Shown in pieces: positions 20,236 through 35,740 of a stretch of 39,566 nucleotides of DNA. Below the pieces are notes generated by a model that saw only the letters and a program-made list of their open reading frames with translations, made no database searches and had not been told where the DNA came from. Position numbers and translations under genes: made by a program. Source of the stretch: Desulforamulus aquiferis (GTDB lineage Bacteria > Bacillota > Desulfotomaculia > Desulfotomaculales > Desulfotomaculaceae); assembly GCA_004143605.1 (NCBI GenBank), contig AWVY01000052.1:102650-142215 (forward strand), read 5' to 3'. The number at the start of each line of letters is the position of its first letter. Position 1 is the stretch's first letter.

Positions 20236-20849
20236 TTGCAGGTGCAGGAAAAACGGAATGTTATCCTGGTCACCGACGGGGATCAGATAGCACGAAGGTC
20301 CCTTGAAGTGGCTGCCCGTAATGTGGGGGCGAGATGCATTTCCATGTCCGCTGGGAATCCCACCAGGCTTAGCGGCAAGGAGTTGGTAGAATTAATCAAG
20401 TCCGCTGCCCATGATCCGGTGGTGGTTATGTTTGATGATAAGGGACACGAAGGACAGGGCCCAGGGGAAAGGGCTTTGCTTGAAGTCTACAATGACCCGG
20501 GAATTAACATTCTGGGGGTAGTGGCGGTGGCATCAAACAGCTTTTGCTGTGATGGAGCCAAAGTAGATATTTCCGTCACCGACACCTGCCAGGTGGTCAA
20601 TGGACCCGTAAATAAATATGGGAAAACAACCAAACGAAGGGTCTTACAGGGGGATACGGTAGAAATATTAAATGACCTAGACGTCCCCATAGTAGTTGGC
20701 ATTGGCGACATAGGCAAAATGAACGGGGATGATGATTACCACTTTGGAGCCAGTGTAACCACCAGGGCTCTTCAGGAAATTATAGAAAGGAGTGGATTTA
20801 GTGGCGGCATCAGTAGAGAAAGAAGCTCCCAGGTTTATACGAATATTGA
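20236..20849 (+). CDS. spoVAE: Stage V sporulation protein AE (SpoVAEa type), one frame break
   Basis: A soluble protein of 204 aa once one C is restored in the run near 20829. It belongs to the SpoVAEa group tied to calcium-dipicolinate movement in spores. Signatures are NVILVTDGDQIARRSLEVAA, ARCISMSAGNPTRLSG, PVVVMFDDKGHEGQGPGE and VPIVVGIGDIGKM. In the raw frame it runs on into SpoVAF and looks like a fusion, but the restored base brings a stop at 20847-20849. The start TTG 20236 has a close GGTGAT; GTG 20242 is an alternative. The 3' end overlaps the spoVAF start by 49 bp, so translation is coupled. Confidence 0.85.
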
Positions 20850-22337
20850 AAAGAACATTGAATATTTAAATGACCTATTGGGTTTTGGAGAAAGCTACGA
20901 TATTGTGCTGCGAAGATTCAACGTTGCAGGTAAGGAAATAGCCATGTATTCCATCAACGGCTTTGTAAAAGATGATGTGATGGCCCTAATCCTTAGAAAC
21001 TTAGACCAGCTTAAGCGGGGAGATGTTTCTCCCAATAGTCTTAAAAAACTTTTTAACGAACACATTAACCATATACAGGTGGATTTGGCCAATAACCTTG
21101 ACCAGGTAATAGACGGAATCCTGAGCGGCCCCTTAGCCCTTCTAATTGAAGGTGAGGACCAGGCCTTATCATCGACCTGCGTACCTATCCAGGCCGGTCA
21201 CCCCAGGAACCTGATCTTGAAAAGGTAGTCCGGGGGCCAAGGGATGGGTTTGTGGAAAGTGTTGTACAAAATACCTTGCTGATGAGGCGTCGCCTTAGGG
21301 ACCCCCGTATGAGAAATGAAGTAATACAAGTAGGAACCCGCTCTAAAACAGACATAGTAATCTCTTACATAGACGACATAGTCAATCCTGACATGGTTAA
21401 GAGGGTTAAGGAAAATATACAAAAAATAAAGATTGACGGGATTCCTATGGCGGAAAAAGCTGTAGAAGAGTTAATAGAGCCAGGCAAATATGGCCACCTT
21501 TTTCCCAAGGTTCGCTTTACGGAGCGCCCGGATGTAGCTGTTGCCCATTTACTGGAGGGTAGAATTGTTGTTACTGTCGATACATCCCCCAGTGCCATGA
21601 TCACTCCCTGCACCCTGTGGGATCACCTGCAGGCAGCAGAGGAATACCGCCAGGGACCGCCCATCGGGGTCTATATCAGATGGGTGAGGTACCTGGGAGT
21701 GCTTGTGGCTTTATTCCTGCTGCCCCTCTGGTTCTTGTTTTCCGTTCAGCCTGATCTTCTACCACCTAGCCTTAGATTTATCGGCCCCAGTGAGCCGGGA
21801 AGAATTCCCCTGATAGTGCAATTTGTCATGGCTGAGCTGGCGGTAGATATGATCAGACTAGCCTCGGTCCATACGCCGTCGCCCCTGGCAATTTCCACCG
21901 GTATTATAGCTGCCATACTAATTGGTGACGTGGCCATAACCGTCGGACTCTTTAGCGCCGAGGTAGTCATGTACACAGCGGTAGCAGCGGTAGCCTCCTT
22001 CATCATCCCCAGCTATGAGCTCAGCTGGGCGGTAAGAATTGTAAGGCTGTTCTTGCTCCTAGCCACAGCAGCCTTTAGACTGCCGGGATTGATTATCGCT
22101 ATGCTCCTCGTTCTGGCTTACCTAATGCGTACCAAATCCCTGGGCGTTCCCTACCTCTGGCCCCTCATTCCCTTTAATGCCAAAGAAATGTTTGCAGTGA
22201 TAGTAAGAACCCCGGTAACACTAAGAAACAAAAGACCGGCCATATTCCACACCTTGGACCCGGTCAGACAAGCAGTACCTGAACCAGCCGCAAAAAGGAG
22301 CGGGGAGAAGATAAAGAAAAGAAATAGCGTCAAATGA
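20801..22337 (+). CDS. spoVAF: Stage V sporulation protein AF, GerA-like membrane protein, two frame breaks
   Basis: A 512-aa homologue of germinant-receptor A subunits that sits in the spore inner membrane. GTG 20801 lies 7 nt after AAAGGAGTG inside the spoVAE gene; restoring one C near 20829 gives MAASVEKEAPQVYTNIEKNI. A second missing base near 21167 restores the ALIIDLRTYPGRSPQEPDLE region. Later signatures are VRGPRDGFVES, LRDPRMRNEVIQVG, SYIDDIVNPDMV and PSAMITPCTLWD, followed by about five membrane helices. The basic tail ends KIKKRNSVK. The window has no spoVAC, spoVAD or spoVAEb next to it. Confidence 0.9.
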
Positions 22338-24304: not shown

Positions 24305-24934
24305 TTATACAGACACGTTCTGGGCCTGCTGGTAATCTTCGGGGGTATTTACATTAAAGAATATCGTATTCCAGTTGAACTCGGGATGCTTGTTAAAATC
24401 AAAGTACCTGACATGGACCTGTTCGTAGAAGGAAGTAATTCTTGGCCTCTCTGATTGCAGGGACTGCTCAATGGCAGGAAGACATCTTTTGCTGTAGGCA
24501 GCATGCAGGGGCTGAAGGTATCGATCCCTTTGTGGGACAGAGATATCAAATTTACCATCAAGCCTTGCCAGTAAAAGGTTTGCTAACTGCGTGTTTAAAA
24601 AGGGCATGTCACAAGCCACAAAGAAAGCAGAGTCATTAGTAATATTTTTAAGACCCGAGTGGATGCCGGCCAATGGGCCACGGTTTTGGTAATAGTCTGT
24701 GAAGATTGGTAGACCAAGATATTTGTACTGCTGGGGATTATTGCTGCTAATAAGGATCTCTTCAAAATGAGGACGAAGCTTGCTTATAATCACTTCTAAC
24801 ATGGGCTTGCCATTAAAACTTAGTAAAGCCTTATTGGTTTTCATTCTGCTGCTGTTACCTCCCACTAAGATTACAGCAGACGAAGCTCTTTTGTCCAAAC
24901 CTATCACATCATTTCCAAGTAGTTTTTTTGGCAA
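24305..24934 (-). CDS. mobA: Molybdenum cofactor guanylyltransferase MobA
   Basis: Transfers GMP from GTP to molybdopterin to make the guanine dinucleotide cofactor used by enzymes such as formate dehydrogenase. 209 aa, intact. VILVGGNSSRMKTNKALLSFNG is the GTP-binding loop; GPLAGIHSGL and VACDMPFL carry the guanine-binding and Mg2+ Asp residues. The usual MGxDK Asp is Asn here (MKTNK). The start is uncertain: TTG 24934 gives about 17 residues before the core, and GTG 24907 would shorten that; neither has a strong ribosome site. It lies 4 kb from the molybdo-/tungsto-enzyme gene fdhA, a likely client. Confidence 0.88.
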   Translation of the reverse strand: MPKKLLGNDVIGLDKRASSAVILVGGNSSRMKTNKALLSFNGKPMLEVIISKLRPHFEEILISSNNPQQYKYLGLPIFTDYYQNRGPLAGIHSGLKNITNDSAFFVACDMPFLNTQLANLLLARLDGKFDISVPQRDRYLQPLHAAYSKRCLPAIEQSLQSERPRITSFYEQVHVRYFDFNKHPEFNWNTIFFNVNTPEDYQQAQNVSV

Positions 24935-25539: not shown

Positions 25540-26349
25540 TTGGCTGAAGAAAAAGACCAATCAATGATTGAGCACCTGGAAGAATTGCGCCGGGTGCTGA
25601 TAGTTTCTCTTATTGCAACCTTTATCATGACCGGGGTATGCTGGTTTTTAGTGATTATATCTTACAAATAATTATTCAGCCAGTAACAGCCACCGGCAAT
25701 AAAATGCACTATATAGGTGTAATGGAAGCCCTAATGACAAAAATCAAGCTATCTCTTTTCTTGGGCTTTCTCACAGCTTTGCCGGTGATTTTATGGCAGT
25801 TCTGGAGCTTTATTATGCCGGCCCTGCGCAAGACAGAGAAATTATATTTTACCATTTTCGTAATCGTTTCTTATTTATTTTTCATTGGTGGAATTTTATT
25901 TTCTTTCTATACTGTGTTTAACCTGGGCGTGAAGTTCTTACTTCATTTTGGCGGTGAAGAACTGCTGCCAATGCTAACCATTGGTAATTATGTATCCTTT
26001 GCCATGATGTTTATACTACCCTTTGGTATAGTTTTTGAATTGCCCCTGGCAGTTTCCTTTTGGCCCAACTGGGGGTAATTAACTACGAGTGGATGGTAAA
26101 GAAAAGGAAAATGGCTATCTTGGTCTCGGTTGTCACAGGCGCAGTTCTTGTGCCTTCGCCTGATATCATTACTCCTTTAATGATGGCCGCCCCTATGTAT
26201 CTGTTGTTTGAAGTAGCGTCTCGGTGGTCAAACTTGTGGAATGGCTTAAAAAGAGAAAGGCCAAGCGTCAAGCGGCCCAAGAGGAAGCCGAGGAAAGAGC
26301 GAGAAATAACAACGAGGAAGAAAAGGTTACCGAAAACAACAAAGATTAA
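25540..26349 (+). CDS. tatC: Twin-arginine translocase subunit TatC, three frame breaks
   Basis: Six-helix membrane receptor for Tat signal peptides, 270 aa after restoring bases near 25648, 26061 and 26227. Family signatures are MIEHLEELRRVLI at the N-terminus, EALMTKIKLSLFLGFLTALP, WQFWSFIMPALRKTEK, FGIVFELPLAVSFL and PSPDIITPLMMAAPMYLLFE. The C-terminal tail is highly charged (KKRKAKRQAAQEEAEERA), longer than usual. TTG 25540 follows AAGGGGGT. Raw frames alone would yield two unrelated-looking fragments. Confidence 0.92.
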
Positions 26350-26358
26350 TAAATCAAA

Positions 26359-26397
26359 CAAAACCGGTGTGCTAGTCTAGTCCGCCGGTTTTGTTTT
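26359..26397 (+). terminator. Terminator after tatC
   Basis: CAAAACCGG (26359-26367) pairs with CCGGTTTTG (26385-26393), followed by TTTTG. Confidence 0.85.
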
Positions 26398-28324: not shown

Positions 28325-28484
28325 TTTATGAGTCAGGTAATTGTGTCCACTTTTTATAAACATTTACCCTGGTATTTCGACAAAAGGAAGCTGCAATTGG
28401 CAGTGGAACAGTAGATGTTTCGTCATAAAAATAGTAGAATATAGCTTGTTTAAAGATAAATTTCATTCCGGAGGTGCCCGACAA

Positions 28485-28963
28485 ATGACTTGTAAATGTA
28501 ATGAAAATAACGAAAGGCAAGTCCGGTTAGAAGAGATTCTGGTGAAGTATCAGAATGAGCCGGGGGCTTTAATACCTGTACTCCAGCAGGCCCAGGATAT
28601 TTATGGCTATTTATCTCCGGAACTGTTGAAGGAGATTTCTAGCTGCCTGAATATACCCCTTTCCCGTATCTATGGGGTAGCCACTTTCTATGCCCAATTT
28701 CACTTAGAGCCAAGGGGGCGGAATATTATCAGGGTTTGCCAGGGAACAGCCTGTCATGTTCGGGGTGCTTCAAGGGTGATGGATGCCATTAAGAGATATA
28801 CTGGGGTTGATACAGGTGAAACAACTAAGGATTTGCGTTTTACCATAGAACCAGTGGCTTGCCTGGGGGCTGTGGCTTGGCTCCTGTAATGATGGTTAAT
28901 GAGGATACTGAGGGTCAGTTGACACCGGAAAAGGCGGTAAAAAAGATTTCCAGCTATAAATAG
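28485..28963 (+). CDS. NuoE-like [2Fe-2S] subunit of NAD(P)-linked formate dehydrogenase, one frame break
   Basis: Thioredoxin-like ferredoxin subunit, 159 aa, of the NuoE/HndA/HydC family. Cluster ligands C85 and C90 (VCQGTACHVRG) and C126 and C130 (CLGACGLAP) are visible once a missing T near 28872 is restored. It passes electrons between the NuoF-like flavin subunit and the rest of the complex. The start ATG 28485 follows GGAGGTG; an in-frame GTG 28341 upstream lacks such a site. First gene of a three-gene operon with the NuoF-like and FdhA genes, so the complex is soluble and cytoplasmic. Confidence 0.88.
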
Positions 28964-28978
28964 AAGGCAGGTAATGAA

Positions 28979-30928
28979 ATGATTAATTTAATGGAAGCCT
29001 GCTGTTCCCAATGTAAGCATACCCCTGCCACACCCTGTCAAAGGTTCGTGGACTGTCGAAAATCTGGTCCCTTTTGCCATGAGAGCAAGGGTTGTGCTGA
29101 CAGCAGGAAAAAATTAGTTAACAGGGTGCAGGTGTTATCGGGATCACCTGTTAAACAAATTATCGTGTGTGGTGGGACGGGCTGTTCTTCCTCCGGCTCG
29201 GCCAAGCTGGCAGAATTATTGACGGAGGAGATAAAAAAGCGGGAACTGTCTAATGAGGTGCTGGTTAAGAGAACCAGCTGCCATGGTTTTTGTGAAAATG
29301 GTCCTATTGTTCATGTCAAACCAGAGTCAATTTTTTATACTAAGGTTAAGCCTGGGGATGTAAATGAGATTGTTAGCTCCCACCTGATTGAAGAAAAGTA
29401 TGTTGAGGGATTAATGTTTCATGATCCTGACTCAGGACACCCATACCCCCACTTCAGTGATATTCCCTTTATGCACGGCAGACCAGGGTATTATTAGAAC
29501 GCTGTGGTCAAATCGACCCGGAACAAATCGCCGATTATGTAGCATTGGGGGGTATCTCAGCCTGGTCCAGGCCCTGCAAAGGATGTCCCCGGAACAAGCC
29601 CTGGAGGAAGTGAAGCTTTCCGGTCTCCGGGGACGGGGGGGAGCAGGGTTTCCCACGGGCAGAAAATGGGAAAGTGCCAGAAGGGCAGCGGGAGCTATAA
29701 AGTATATTATTTGCAATGCCGATGAAGGTGATCCCGGTGCTTTATGGATCGTTCTGTGCTGGAGGGGGATCCCCATTCTGTGCTGGAGGGAATGCTAATT
29801 GCCGGCTACGCAGTTGGCGCAAGCACCGGCTATGTCTACTGCCGGGCAGAGTATCCCCTGGCTATTCAGAGACTTAAAACAGCCATTAAACAGGCCCGGG
29901 AATACGGCCTGCTGGGAAATAACATATTAGGATCAGGTTTTTCCTTTGACATTGTATTAAAGGAAGGTGCAGGGGCCTTTGTGTGTGGCGAAGGAACTGC
30001 CCTACAGGCTTCCATTGAAGGAATGCGCGGCATGCCCAGGGTCAAACCCCCCGCTCCACCGAAAGATTATGGGAAAAGCCCACCGTATTAAATAACGTTG
30101 AGACCCTGGCCAATATACCTTTAATTATTAAAATAGGGGCCGAAGAGTATAAAAAACTGGGAACGGCTAGTTCACCTGGTACTAAAATTTTTGCCATCAG
30201 CGGTTCCGTTGCCAATGCTGGATTAGTTGAGGTACCCATGGGGGTCAGCCTTAGGGAGATTATTTTTGGTGCCGGGGGCGGCATTCGGGTGGTAAAGCTT
30301 TCAAGGCTGTTCAATTGGGAGGGCCATCCGGGGGCTGTCTTACAGAACAGCACCTGGACATGCCTGTGGATTTTGATTCCCTATCCTCTGCGGGGGCGAC
30401 AATTGGTTCCGGCGGCATGGTAGTGATGGATGAAGACACCTGTATGGTAGATGTGGCCAGGTTTTTTCTAGCCTTCACCCAAGCAGAATCCTGCGGCAAG
30501 TGTACTCCCTGCCGGGAAGGAACCAAGCGCATGCTGGAAATACTCCAGTCTATGTGTCAGGGCAGGCAACCATGGAGGATCTTGAAAACCTGGAAAGACT
30601 ATGCAGGGTAGTTAAAGCAACGGCACTATGCGGTCTGGGTCAAGCCTGTGCCAACCCGGTACTTTCTACCCTCAAGTATTTTAAATCTGAGTATTTAGCC
30701 CACATCGTGGACAAGCGTTGTCCAGCGGGAGTATGCACAGATTTAATCGGCTACAGCATAGATGCGGAAAAATGCAGGGGCTGTGGTCTCTGTCTGAGGG
30801 AGTGTCCCACAGGGGCCATCACTGGCGAAAGAAAGCAGCCCCACATAATTAATGCCCAGAGCTGTATTAAATGTGGCGTCTGCATTAGCAAATGTAAATT
30901 CAAAGCAGTAAAGATTCAAGGGAGGTGA
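28979..30928 (+). CDS. NuoF-like diaphorase subunit with Cys-rich N-terminus, six frame breaks
   Basis: FMN- and NAD(P)-binding subunit (HndC/HydB/HylB type), 651 aa after restoring bases near 29480, 29548, 29741, 30055, 30290 and 30568. Order: an unusual N-terminal Cys-rich segment (C8, C9, C12, C20, C26, C33, C39), a thioredoxin-like [2Fe-2S] domain ([11 protein letters not shown] ... [10 protein letters not shown]), the NADH/FMN core ([24 protein letters not shown]), the 4Fe-4S motif [11 protein letters not shown] with a distant CGLGQ, and two C-terminal 4Fe-4S motifs ([23 protein letters not shown]). This layout is shared with electron-bifurcating hydrogenases and formate dehydrogenases. 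ATG 28979 has only a modest ribosome site. Confidence 0.88.
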
Positions 30929-30933
30929 GTAAG

Positions 30934-33607
30934 GTGTCTGATATATGCTTAACTATTAATGACCAAAAAGTTTCAGTGCCAAAGGGAACTACCTTGCTCG
31001 CAGCGGCCCGGAAGCTTGGCATAGATATTCCTACCCTTTGCCATGATCCAGAATTAACCCGCTATGCGGTTGCCGTATTTGCGTGGTTGAAGTGGTAGGC
31101 TGGGGGAGCCTGCCTGCCTCCTGTGTAACAGAGGCAAGGGAAGGCATGGTTGTATATACCGAATCTGATCAGGTGACAGAGGCAAGAAGCACTATATTGG
31201 AACTGCTGCTGGCAAATCATCCTGATGATTGCCTAACCTGTGATAAGGCGGGTCGCTGTAGTCTGCAGGATTTCAGCTATCGTTACGGTATCCGTAAGGG
31301 TCCCTTTTTGGGTGAAAGAAAAGCCTATCCCTTGGATCAGGAGAACCCCTTCATTCTTCGTGATATGAGTAAATGCATACTGTGTGGCAAATGTGTCAGG
31401 GTTTGTTCCGAGGTAGTTGGCCGAAATGTAGTAGATTTTAGTTTTCGAGGGTTTGCCACCAAGGTTGCCACCCCCTTAAATTGCGGCCTTGAAGAAGCAG
31501 GCTGCGTATTCTGCGGCTCTTGTGTTGAAGTCTGCCCGGTTGGTGCATTGTCAGAAAAACAGATGTCCGGTAGGGGCCGAAGTTGGCAAGTTAATTCCGT
31601 TACCACCACCTGTCCCTATTGCGGTGTTGGCTGTCAGGTTAACCTGCAAGTGAAGGGCAACAGAGTTGTTGGAGCAAAATCCGCCGGAACAGGCATCAAC
31701 GGCAAGCATCTATGTATCAAGGGACGTTTTGCCTATGGTTTTATTCACCATCCAGAACGCTTAACCAGACCCCTAATAAAAAGAAATGGCCAGTTTGAAG
31801 AGGTAAGCTGGGAAGAGGCCTTGCATGAAACTGGTAGCCGTCTTAGGGAAATAAAAGAGCTGCATGGCAGTGATGCCCTGGCCGTCCTGGCCTCGGCCCG
31901 GATTACCAACGAGGAAAACTACCTCTTGGGAAAACTGGCCAGGGCAGCATTGGGTACCAATAATATAGATCACTGTGCCCGTCTCTGACACTCCCCCACC
32001 GTCGCCGGTCTGGCGACTGCGTTGGCAGTGGGGCCATGACTAACTCCATTGATGAAATAGCCGGAGCTAGCCTGATCCTGGCCATTGGCACCAATACCAC
32101 CGAGGCCCATCCGGTTATTTCCCTGCGCATCCGTAAGGCTCTGCAGCGGGGTGCCAAATTGATAGTGGTTGACCCAAGAAAAACCGAGCTGGCAGAACTG
32201 GCCACCAGTCACCTGCAGCTCAAGCCCGGAACTGATATTGCCCTATTTAACAGCATGGCCAGGTATATTTTAGGAGAGAGAATATGGAATAAAGAGTTCG
32301 TGGCGGAAAGGTGCGAGGGATTAGAGGGACTCAGGGAATCCCTCGGCGAATTTACTCCCGAATATGCCCAGACTATAACAGGTATTCCGGCAGCTTTAAT
32401 TAAAGAAACAGCCCGTGCCTATGCCCAGGCGGAAAGGGCCACAATTCTATACACCATGGGTCTTACCCAGCATGCTTGTGGAACAGATAATGTTTTGGCA
32501 GTGGCTAATCTAGCCCTGCTATGCGGTCAGATAGGGCGGGAATCCACAGGCCTTAACCCATTACGGGGCCAAAATAATGTCCAGGGAGCCTGCGATATGG
32601 GGGGCTTGCCCAATGTTCTACCGGGCTACCAGCAGGTTCAGGATGAAGGAAACAGAAAAATTTTCTCTGGGGCCTGGGGTGCAGCACTTAGTGATAAACC
32701 TGGCCTAACCCTTGGGGAAATGATGGATAGTGCTCTTCAGGGAACCCTTAAGGCCATGTATATTACAGGGGAAAACCCAATCCTTTCCGATGCTGACAGC
32801 AACCACGTTCAAAAAGCCTTGGAGAAGCTAGACTTCCTGGTGGTCCAAGACATGTTTTTAACCGATACCGCCAAGCTGGCAGATGTGGTGCTTCCGGCAG
32901 CCAGCTTTGCAGAAAAGGAAGGTACCTTCACCAACACAGAACGTCGTGTGCAGCGGGTGAGAAAAGCCATTGAGCCAATAGCTGGGGCCAAACCGGATTG
33001 GCAGATAATCTGCGCCCTGGCGGCAGAACTTGGCTACCCCATGAAATATGCAGGACCCAAAGAAATTTTCGAGGAGATCACAAGGCTCACCCCTTCCTAC
33101 CGGGGCATAAGCTACCAGCGCTTAGAAAAGGAAGGCATCCAATGGCCCTGTCCCTCAGAAGAACATCCCGGCACAAAATATTTACACAACCAAACCTTTG
33201 TCCGGGGCAAAGCCCGGCTAACCCCTGTCAATTACATGCAGCCAAAGGAACTACCGGACGAAAAATACCCGCTAATGTTAAACACCGGCAGGCGTTTGCA
33301 GCACTACCATACCGGCACCATGACCCTGCGTACTGAGATTACCCAAATATACGGTTCAGAAAAGCTAGACATCAACCCAGGGATGCCAAAAACCTGAAAC
33401 TATCCCAAAAGGACAACATTAGAGTAATCTCCAGGCGAGGAGAGGTAACAATGCAGGCAAACCTCTCTGAAACAGTTCCCCCCGGCATGGTATTCGCAGC
33501 TTCCACTTCCCCGAGGCAGCCATAAACAAACTAACCAACGCCGCCAGATGCCCCAAGCTAAAATACCGGAATTCAAAATCTGTGCAGTAAGGGTTGAAAA
33601 GATATAA
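30934..33607 (+). CDS. fdhA: Selenocysteine formate dehydrogenase catalytic subunit, UGA = Sec, five frame breaks
   Basis: Catalytic subunit oxidising formate to CO2 (or the reverse), 892 aa once bases near 31069, 32022, 33380, 33500 and 33575 are restored. N-terminal [2Fe-2S] domain (C36, C47, C50, C64), His-Cys 4Fe-4S site (HPDDCLTCDKAGRC), two 4Fe-4S motifs (CILCGKCVRVC, CVFCGSCVEVC), then the molybdopterin domain starting CPYCGVGC. TGA 31986-31988 at codon 352 lies in DHCARL-U-HSPTVAGL, the exact active-site position of selenocysteine in FdhF-type enzymes, and a SECIS hairpin follows. No Tat signal, so cytoplasmic. GTG 30934 follows GGAGGTGAG. With the NuoE/NuoF-like subunits it should be NAD(P)-linked and possibly electron-bifurcating. 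Confidence 0.93.
31986..32025 (+). promoter_or_regulatory. Bacterial SECIS element directing Sec at UGA 31986
   Basis: Eighteen nt after the UGA begins the apical loop GGTCT (32007-32011) of a perfect 6-bp stem, GTCGCC (32001-32006) with GGCGAC (32012-32017). A GGUCU apical loop is what I recall for the Escherichia coli fdhF SECIS bound by SelB, and the UGA-to-loop distance is in the known range. The stem also encodes the conserved TVAGLAT residues. Confidence 0.85.
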
Positions 33608-33671: not shown

Positions 33672-33881
33672 GGGTTTTAATAATCCCTCACGATTCCTCT
33701 CTCCGCAGTGGACAGCGCTAATCGCTTGCTTCGGGCGAAAATGGGTCGCCTTCGAGTAAACATCGTGTTTACCTCAGGCTTGCCCGGACGTCCATGTCCG
33801 GGCACCCATTTTCGCATCCTCAGCTTCGCGAAGCGCTGTTTCCACTGCTCCGAATGTCGCTGTTCGGGATTATTAAAACCC
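33672..33881. repeat. 210-bp near-palindromic noncoding element (MITE-like)
   Basis: Perfect 16-bp terminal inverted repeats, GGGTTTTAATAATCCC (33672-33687) and GGGATTATTAAAACCC (33866-33881), enclose arms that keep pairing with gaps: CAGTGGACAGCGCT and GCGAAAATGGGT on the left match AGCGCTGTTTCCACTG and ACCCATTTTCGC on the right. The centre is a hairpin GCCCGGAC/GTCCGGGC (about 33781-33802). The ORFs across it have no ribosome sites. It fills the convergent gap between fdhA and the chemoreceptor. Confidence 0.6.
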
Positions 33882-33941: not shown

Positions 33942-35534
33942 TTATTGTAGCTTAAATCTCTTAGTCATTAAATCAAGCTCCTCAGCCATTTTGGCTAAAT
34001 CTTGAGAGGTGCCTGAAAGCTCCTCCATTGTGGCTGTTTGTTCCTCTGTTGAAGCAGCTGCATTTTGAACGCCGGAAGCCATTTGTTCAGTAGCTGAAGC
34101 TAATGATTGAATTTCGCTGGCCATTTCTTGAATTGATAAAATGATTTTCCCTATGGATTCACTTACCTCATGCACCACCTGAACACCATCTTTTGCTTGA
34201 ATTTTTGTATTCTCCATACTCTCAACGGCTTTATGTGACTCCTGCTGGATAACCGAAATAAGGTCGTGAATTTCCTTGGCGGCGTTCGTGGATTGTTCGG
34301 CCAATTTCCTCACTTCCTCAGCCACCACCGCAAACCCTCGTCCTTGCTCCCCGGCCCTGGCCGCTTCAATAGCAGCATTAAGGCTAATAAATTGGTCTGA
34401 TCAGCAATTTGGGTAATTAATTCGACAATCTTAGTGATTTGACTACTGGCATTGCTTAGCCCTTGGATTACCTGAGAACTATCCTCTGTGGATTTATGGA
34501 TAACATCCATCTTCACCCTTATATTAGATATGGCCTCTTCCCCATTTGAAGCGTAGACAGTTGCCTTGTCTGAAGAATCGGCAATGTTTTGGGAATTGGC
34601 AGCCACTTGCTCAATGGTTGTTGCCACTTCGTTGATGGAGCTGAAATTTCGCTGGCATTTAAAGCCATATTTTCTGCACCCTTAGAAAGATTTTCTGCAG
34701 ATGAGGTAACATTGCCCGATTTCTCCTGAAGGTTAAGTACATATCCTTTAGGCTCAGCAGCATTTTATTAAAGGAATCCGCTAATGCTCCAATTTCATCC
34801 TTAGATTTAATTTTTATCTCGGTACTAGTCAGGTCATTAGAGGCAATCTTTGCCGCCTCTTGGCTCACGATCCGAATGGGTTTAACCATTCTCCAACCCA
34901 TCAAGTAACCAATTAATGCTCCTAATATAGTCACCAGTGCCAATAATACTATGGAAATCTGTATAGTATTATTAGCATTATCAAAATTCATTTTTGTTTC
35001 TTTATCTAATGCATCAGAAATAAGAAATTCAAAGGTATTGCCCGACGAGGACAATTTGCTAAACAATTCCTCATTGGATCTAATATGGCTCATTAATCTT
35101 TCTTGAACCTCTTCCCTTTCGTCTCCCTCTATATCCTCACGTTCCTTTATTAAATTAAGGACTTGCTGCCCGTATTGCTCATAGGACATGGCTCTTTCAT
35201 TAAAGTCCCCATATAATGCCTTTTCCTCTTGTTTGACCAATAATGGTTCAATGCTTTTTAAATTCTCCTTAGCACGGTTTATGGCTTGTACATACTTAGA
35301 AGCGTCACTGGGGTTTCCTGTCACTGTATAGGAGATTAAATTAGCGGCAGCTTGATTATAGTTAGCATTGGTCAATGTTATCATGTACCTGGCATGGGCC
35401 TTTTCATTAATTAATCGGTCGTAATTATTGTTTATATTCCAAATGTTAACAACCAAAAATGCTCCGATGCAAAACATTAATGACAAAATCACTCCAAAAC
35501 AAAGCATAAACTTACCTAGAATATTAAACCTCAA
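33942..35534 (-). CDS. Membrane methyl-accepting chemotaxis protein, three frame breaks
   Basis: A 531-aa chemoreceptor after restoring bases near 34741, 34641 and 34382. It has a first membrane helix ([21 protein letters not shown]), a helical periplasmic sensor domain (four-helix-bundle type, residues about 30-190), a second helix ([19 protein letters not shown]), a HAMP domain ([19 protein letters not shown]) and the cytoplasmic signalling domain with the hairpin tip [22 protein letters not shown] that contacts CheA/CheW. TTG 35534 is the start, 5 nt after TAGGGGTGA; GTG 35543 overlaps that site. Its mRNA leader carries a c-di-GMP riboswitch. The ligand is unknown. Confidence 0.92.
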
Positions 35535-35575
35535 AATTATCACCCCTATGTTTTTAGTCCTTAAAATTGCCGCTT

Positions 35576-35651: not shown

Positions 35652-35740
35652 TGATTGTTAGGCAACCTGGCAGTCATACCATAATGGCTTAGACCATAGC
35701 TTTGCGTCCCCACCTTTCGATAGGTTTGCCTTTATCTATA
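35652..35740 (-). ncRNA. Cyclic-di-GMP class I (GEMM) riboswitch
   Basis: Read on the minus strand: AAAGGCAAACC, then CGAAAGGTGGGGACGCAAAGC, a variable stem with GGTCTAAGCC and ATGGTATGACTGCC, ending AGGTTGCCTAA. The GGCAAACC...GGTTGCC closing stem, the GAAA tetraloop-type CGAAAGG and the invariant ACGCAAAGC are the GEMM-I consensus. With the terminator downstream it would couple chemoreceptor expression to cellular c-di-GMP. Confidence 0.92.

Follow-up and report, generated by a model that had tools for sequence, protein, structure and literature searches.

The in-frame TGA codon at positions 31986–31988 (plus strand) of the analyzed DNA from Desulforamulus aquiferis, a stretch of 39,566 nucleotides here called the window, is almost certainly the selenocysteine codon of the alpha subunit of an NAD-linked formate dehydrogenase (fdhA), decoded by means of SelB and a SECIS hairpin. 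In a mechanical search for open reading frames this codon terminates the ORF 31083–31988. Translation through the TGA yielded NNIDHCARL-U-HSPTVAGLATA, so that the selenocysteine context DHCARL and HSPTVAGL claimed in the initial annotation was recovered. The motif UHSP agrees with UHxP, the motif given for selenocysteine-containing FdhA in the available portion of the review PMC13188914, and the UGA aligns with the active-site cysteine of homologues. The features of the region are collected in Table 1.

Table 1. Features of the formate dehydrogenase region (positions in the window).
Feature	Position	Strand	Remarks
NuoE/HoxE-like subunit	28341..28889	+	2Fe-2S_thioredx domain; NuoE/HoxE models score below cut-off
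NuoF-like subunit with CCxxC prefix, in several frames	28979..30928	+	NuoF_pre_CCxxC, Complex1_51K and NADH_4Fe-4S on separate ORFs
fdhA up to the UGA	30934..31988 (start approximate)	+	NuoG-like Fe-S domains, Molybdop_Fe4S4, start of the molybdopterin domain
UGA read as selenocysteine	31986..31988	+	residue 302 when the ORF is read through from 31083
fdhA past the UGA	31989..33527 (end approximate)	+	molybdopterin domain and C-terminal part, in several frames
SECIS hairpin	32001..32017	+	stem GTCGCC 32001–32006 with GGCGAC 32012–32017, loop GGTCT 32007–32011
Frame change distinct from the UGA, frame 3 to frame 2	32021..32033	+	seen with all four relatives; likely assembly error

The hairpin starts 13 nt past the UGA, and the distance from the UGA to the loop is 18 nt. 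The perfect 6-bp stem and the loop that had been described before were thus found in the sequence exactly as claimed. The loop GGTCT presumably resembles that of the SECIS element of E. coli fdhF. Folding of the RNA 31986–32024 gave the same hairpin with a free energy of −10.9 kcal/mol. All values lie within the limits of the bSECIS model as given in the accessible part of PMC13188914, namely a loop of 3–9 nt (here 5 nt), an upper stem of 4–16 bp (here 6 bp), a G in the first two loop positions, 16–37 nt from the UGA to the loop and a minimum free energy of at most −7.5 kcal/mol. The fold energy of 31986–32024 itself is unremarkable (z = −0.72; 46 of 200 shuffled sequences folded as well or better) and was dropped as uninformative evidence for a SECIS. 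The geometry is rare: of the 1162 TGA triplets that the two strands of the window contain, one is followed at exactly this distance by a perfect 6-bp stem with a 5-nt loop that has G in its first two positions, and six are when spacers of 11–33 nt are admitted. The word GGTCT is present 64 times on both strands and is flanked by six pairs only at 32007–32011.

Homologous sites were collected from two sources. A scan of genome contigs gave 575 confirmed stretches, the best 80 of which were kept, and a search of 60 genomes including the window's own gave matches in 54, of which 30 were fetched. These 110 loci and the window were aligned, resulting in 113 rows across the codon (L064 and L078 contribute two rows each). 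All 113 rows carry either TGA or a cysteine codon at the place equivalent to 31986 (TGA 95, TGC 12, TGT 6, among the best 80 of 575 and the 30 fetched loci). After removal of the window together with L103, its own copy, and merging of rows identical over the compared stretch, 105 distinct related sites remained from these loci, comprising 88 TGA, 17 cysteine codons and no other codon. The comparison with Sec- and Cys-containing homologues, proposed in the initial annotation as a check, consequently turned out in favor of selenocysteine.

The hairpin varies together with the codon. Full pairing of the stem (6/6) was observed in 80 of 88 TGA rows versus 2 of 17 Cys rows, the loop GGTCT in 83 of 88 versus 5 of 17, and both features together in 76 of 88 versus a single Cys row (L063). 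The 12 TGA rows without full stem or exact loop, and L063, which retains both, count against the selenocysteine reading. The Fisher values for this comparison overstate its significance because the rows share ancestry; the argument is the contrast between the two sets. For pair counts further identical rows were merged, leaving 82 distinct rows of the 88. In this TGA set 98.4% of the cells are paired, while sliding the 3′ side by 1–3 columns left only 20.5–65.2% paired. Both sides of a pair are altered in 59 cells compared to a shuffled mean of 12.5, and none of 500 shuffles reached this value. For the Cys rows all five measures of pairing and covariation were at the level of the shuffles. The most variable pair joins columns 21 and 33, the third positions of a valine and an alanine codon; judged from the codons, the protein sequence would not account for this coupling. 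The orthologues form a clean natural contrast in which the hairpin covaries where UGA is present and is mostly decayed where cysteine is encoded, in one case inside the genus.

Within the genus, a single TGA was located in the best FdhA match of seven of the eight other genomes and none in the remaining one (G004). The six genus loci inspected (L104–L107, L109 and L110; 67–72% identity) have the TGA at the same codon, 6/6 pairs and the loop GGTCT. Apart from the TGA their frames are unbroken, unlike that of fdhA in the window. Desulfotruncus alcoholivorax (L023) and Desulfofundulus australicus (L027) show the same TGA codon and hairpin at about 62–63% identity. The G004 locus (L108) contains TGC instead, and this genome retains selA and selB. 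Such a codon in the same genus, together with the error-rich assembly of the window's genome, could suggest that a cysteine codon was turned into TGA by an error in sequencing or assembly. This is extremely improbable. The errors seen are frame changes, and a substitution would be needed exactly where the relatives have TGA. Moreover, the hairpin of L108 is reduced to 4/6 pairs with the loop GGACT, whereas the window has 6/6 pairs and GGTCT. A genome-wide reading of TGA as tryptophan was also considered; at this site the alignment with cysteine and the hairpin argue against it.

A covariance model (R1) was built from the 88 TGA rows with the window left out. In the window it matched 31983–32024 with 62 bits and E = 3e-18 (rough calibration), and the next match reached 7.1 bits. 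A test with a SECIS covariance model, which had been suggested together with the original claim, accordingly gave a clear match at the proposed site. The Rfam model SECIS_3 (RF01989) aligned over its full length (model positions 1–59 of 59) to 31983–32040 with 40.1 bits and E = 4e-8 in 201 bases. This score is below the gathering score of 63, which speaks against the SECIS reading, and the hairpin is therefore not filed in this Rfam family; the matched stretch crosses the frame change at 32021–32033. At the gathering threshold Rfam reported two families in the window, neither of them a SECIS.

When the genome was scanned with R1 (1084 candidates, 150 scored), nine matches with E up to 1 were obtained: the window site, a strong match at C33:67904–67945 and seven matches of at most 20.2 bits. 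The match on C33 (L142; 56.4 bits) is a second UGA in FdhA context with a SECIS hairpin. Two of these seven weaker matches were examined and taken as chance. One (L145) is antisense to a ferredoxin-like frame. For the other (L143), located in a frame starting MKVAIIGAGVAGLA, model positions 19–37 alone were matched.

The genome of the window (69 contigs, 72% complete) was searched for the selenocysteine machinery. Only matches above the curated cut-off were counted; matches below threshold occur in control genomes too. The tRNA-Sec gene selC was detected at C56:20646–20738 with 63.4 bits (cut-off 47), and ARAGORN identified a tRNA-SeC with the anticodon TCA at this locus. The adjacent genes selA and selB were found at C56:44003–47300, each with one stretch above its cut-off; their pieces contain SelA domains and the GTPase, beta-barrel and winged-helix domains of SelB. 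For selD on contig C24 a score of 361.9 bits was obtained (cut-off 125). Thus, all four genes of the Sec-decoding trait, which the initial annotation had recommended to look for, are present with matches above cut-off, and the absence of selB and selC, named there as evidence against selenocysteine, is not the case. The selD gene has an in-frame UGA of its own in the context AAG-U-AAK (L021, about 1522–1545). This agrees with UxxK, listed for Sec-type SelD in the available portion of PMC13188914. The TGA inside the selA stretch C56:46414–46899 was rejected as a selenocysteine codon; according to the ORFs it lies at the edge, beside a frame change, and is read as an overrun.

A second kind of interruption has to be distinguished from the UGA. 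Comparison of fdhA with four relatives revealed frame changes at about 31068, 32021–32033, 33376–33382 and 33498–33513. Those at 32021–32033 and 33376–33382 were seen with all four relatives, those at about 31068 and 33498–33513 with two of them (L105 and L106). The separate break reported earlier near 32022 is consequently real, but it does not stand alone, as there are four frame changes besides the UGA. Similarly, it had been stated that automatic annotation would split the enzyme at the UGA. The UGA does end the mechanical ORF; a split would, however, also result from the four frame changes. The UGA itself lies inside one uninterrupted aligned stretch (31068–32033) and is therefore not the product of a frame change.

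A UGA and four frame changes in a single gene might indicate a pseudogene, with the TGA as a nonsense mutation and the frame changes as signs of further decay. We regard this as very improbable, since the TGA occupies the same codon in 88 of the 105 related sites together with a covarying hairpin, and since the frame changes are not special to fdhA. In the same assembly rpoB is broken into nine matched stretches, which by their coordinates require at least six frame changes, and selA into four stretches compared to one stretch in each of the eight other genus genomes. That fdhA, selA and selB are all found in several frames counts against the selenocysteine reading. Because rpoB is broken too, the frame breaks of fdhA are probably assembly errors, which are their likeliest cause.

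The assignment as formate dehydrogenase was derived from both parts of the gene, whose limits were taken from the alignment with L106 (30934 to 33527). The best family for the piece 32036–33397 is Fdh-alpha (TIGR01591) with 580.9 bits. The piece before the UGA scored 167.5 bits with this model, and the genome search gave 185.6 and 594.7 bits for the pieces before and after the UGA, respectively. The whole-protein cut-off of 666.25 was reached by no single piece, as expected for a fragmented gene. On the piece preceding the UGA, NuoG (245.5 bits) outscored Fdh-alpha, which is due to the N-terminal Fe-S part. Among solved structures, the two best chains for the protein P0001, 6tg9 and 9wxb, are formate dehydrogenase alpha subunits and matched residues 2–312 with E = 4.5e-75 and 4.4e-75, respectively; the few C-terminal residues of P0001 come after the frame change near 32024 and were probably translated in the wrong frame. 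The NuoE- and NuoF-like genes are located directly upstream of fdhA on the same strand, a gene set in keeping with an NAD-linked formate dehydrogenase.

From established knowledge of the family, the following route can be proposed. SelB carrying Sec-tRNA(Sec) and GTP would bind the hairpin that closely follows the UGA and would deliver selenocysteine at this codon instead of termination. The selenocysteine is predicted to ligate molybdenum or tungsten in the active site. Electrons from formate would then reach NAD by way of the N-terminal Fe-S clusters and, after these, the NuoE/NuoF-like subunits. One could also imagine the UGA as a selenium-dependent switch that leads to an NuoG-like iron-sulfur protein of roughly 350 residues without selenium and to the full enzyme with selenium. 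There is very little likelihood of this, and it is just as doubtful that the truncated protein would associate with the NuoE/NuoF-like subunits and serve as a separate electron-transfer module.

Taking the UGA as a selenocysteine codon, fdhA closely matches a known system. It shares the UHxP motif, a UGA with a hairpin within the limits and the sel genes with the Sec-containing FdhA with bacterial SECIS described in PMC13188914. As far as the available portion of this source extends, nothing distinguishing was found; the gene here lies in several frames in the assembly. It is well supported that fdhA is a classic, already known bacterial FdhA selenoprotein, that is, an ordinary one and not a new system. 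For annotation the codon matters, as splitting at the UGA would hide the formate dehydrogenase and a part of the energy metabolism.

Several further elements were noted in the window. A protein with a MobA-like nucleotidyltransferase domain (24305–24934, minus strand) and TatC, in two frames (25638–26380, plus strand), are encoded a few kb ahead of the formate dehydrogenase genes. SpoVAE and GerA spore-germination domains at 20236–22337, with GerA split over two ORFs, mark the source as an apparent spore former. Just downstream of fdhA a TwoAYGGAY RNA (RF01731; 54.2 bits) was detected on the minus strand (33698–33855). A c-di-GMP-I riboswitch (RF01051; 74.9 bits) on the minus strand at 35658–35740 is situated upstream of a chemoreceptor-like gene with 4HB_MCP_1 and HAMP domains (34659–35543, minus strand).
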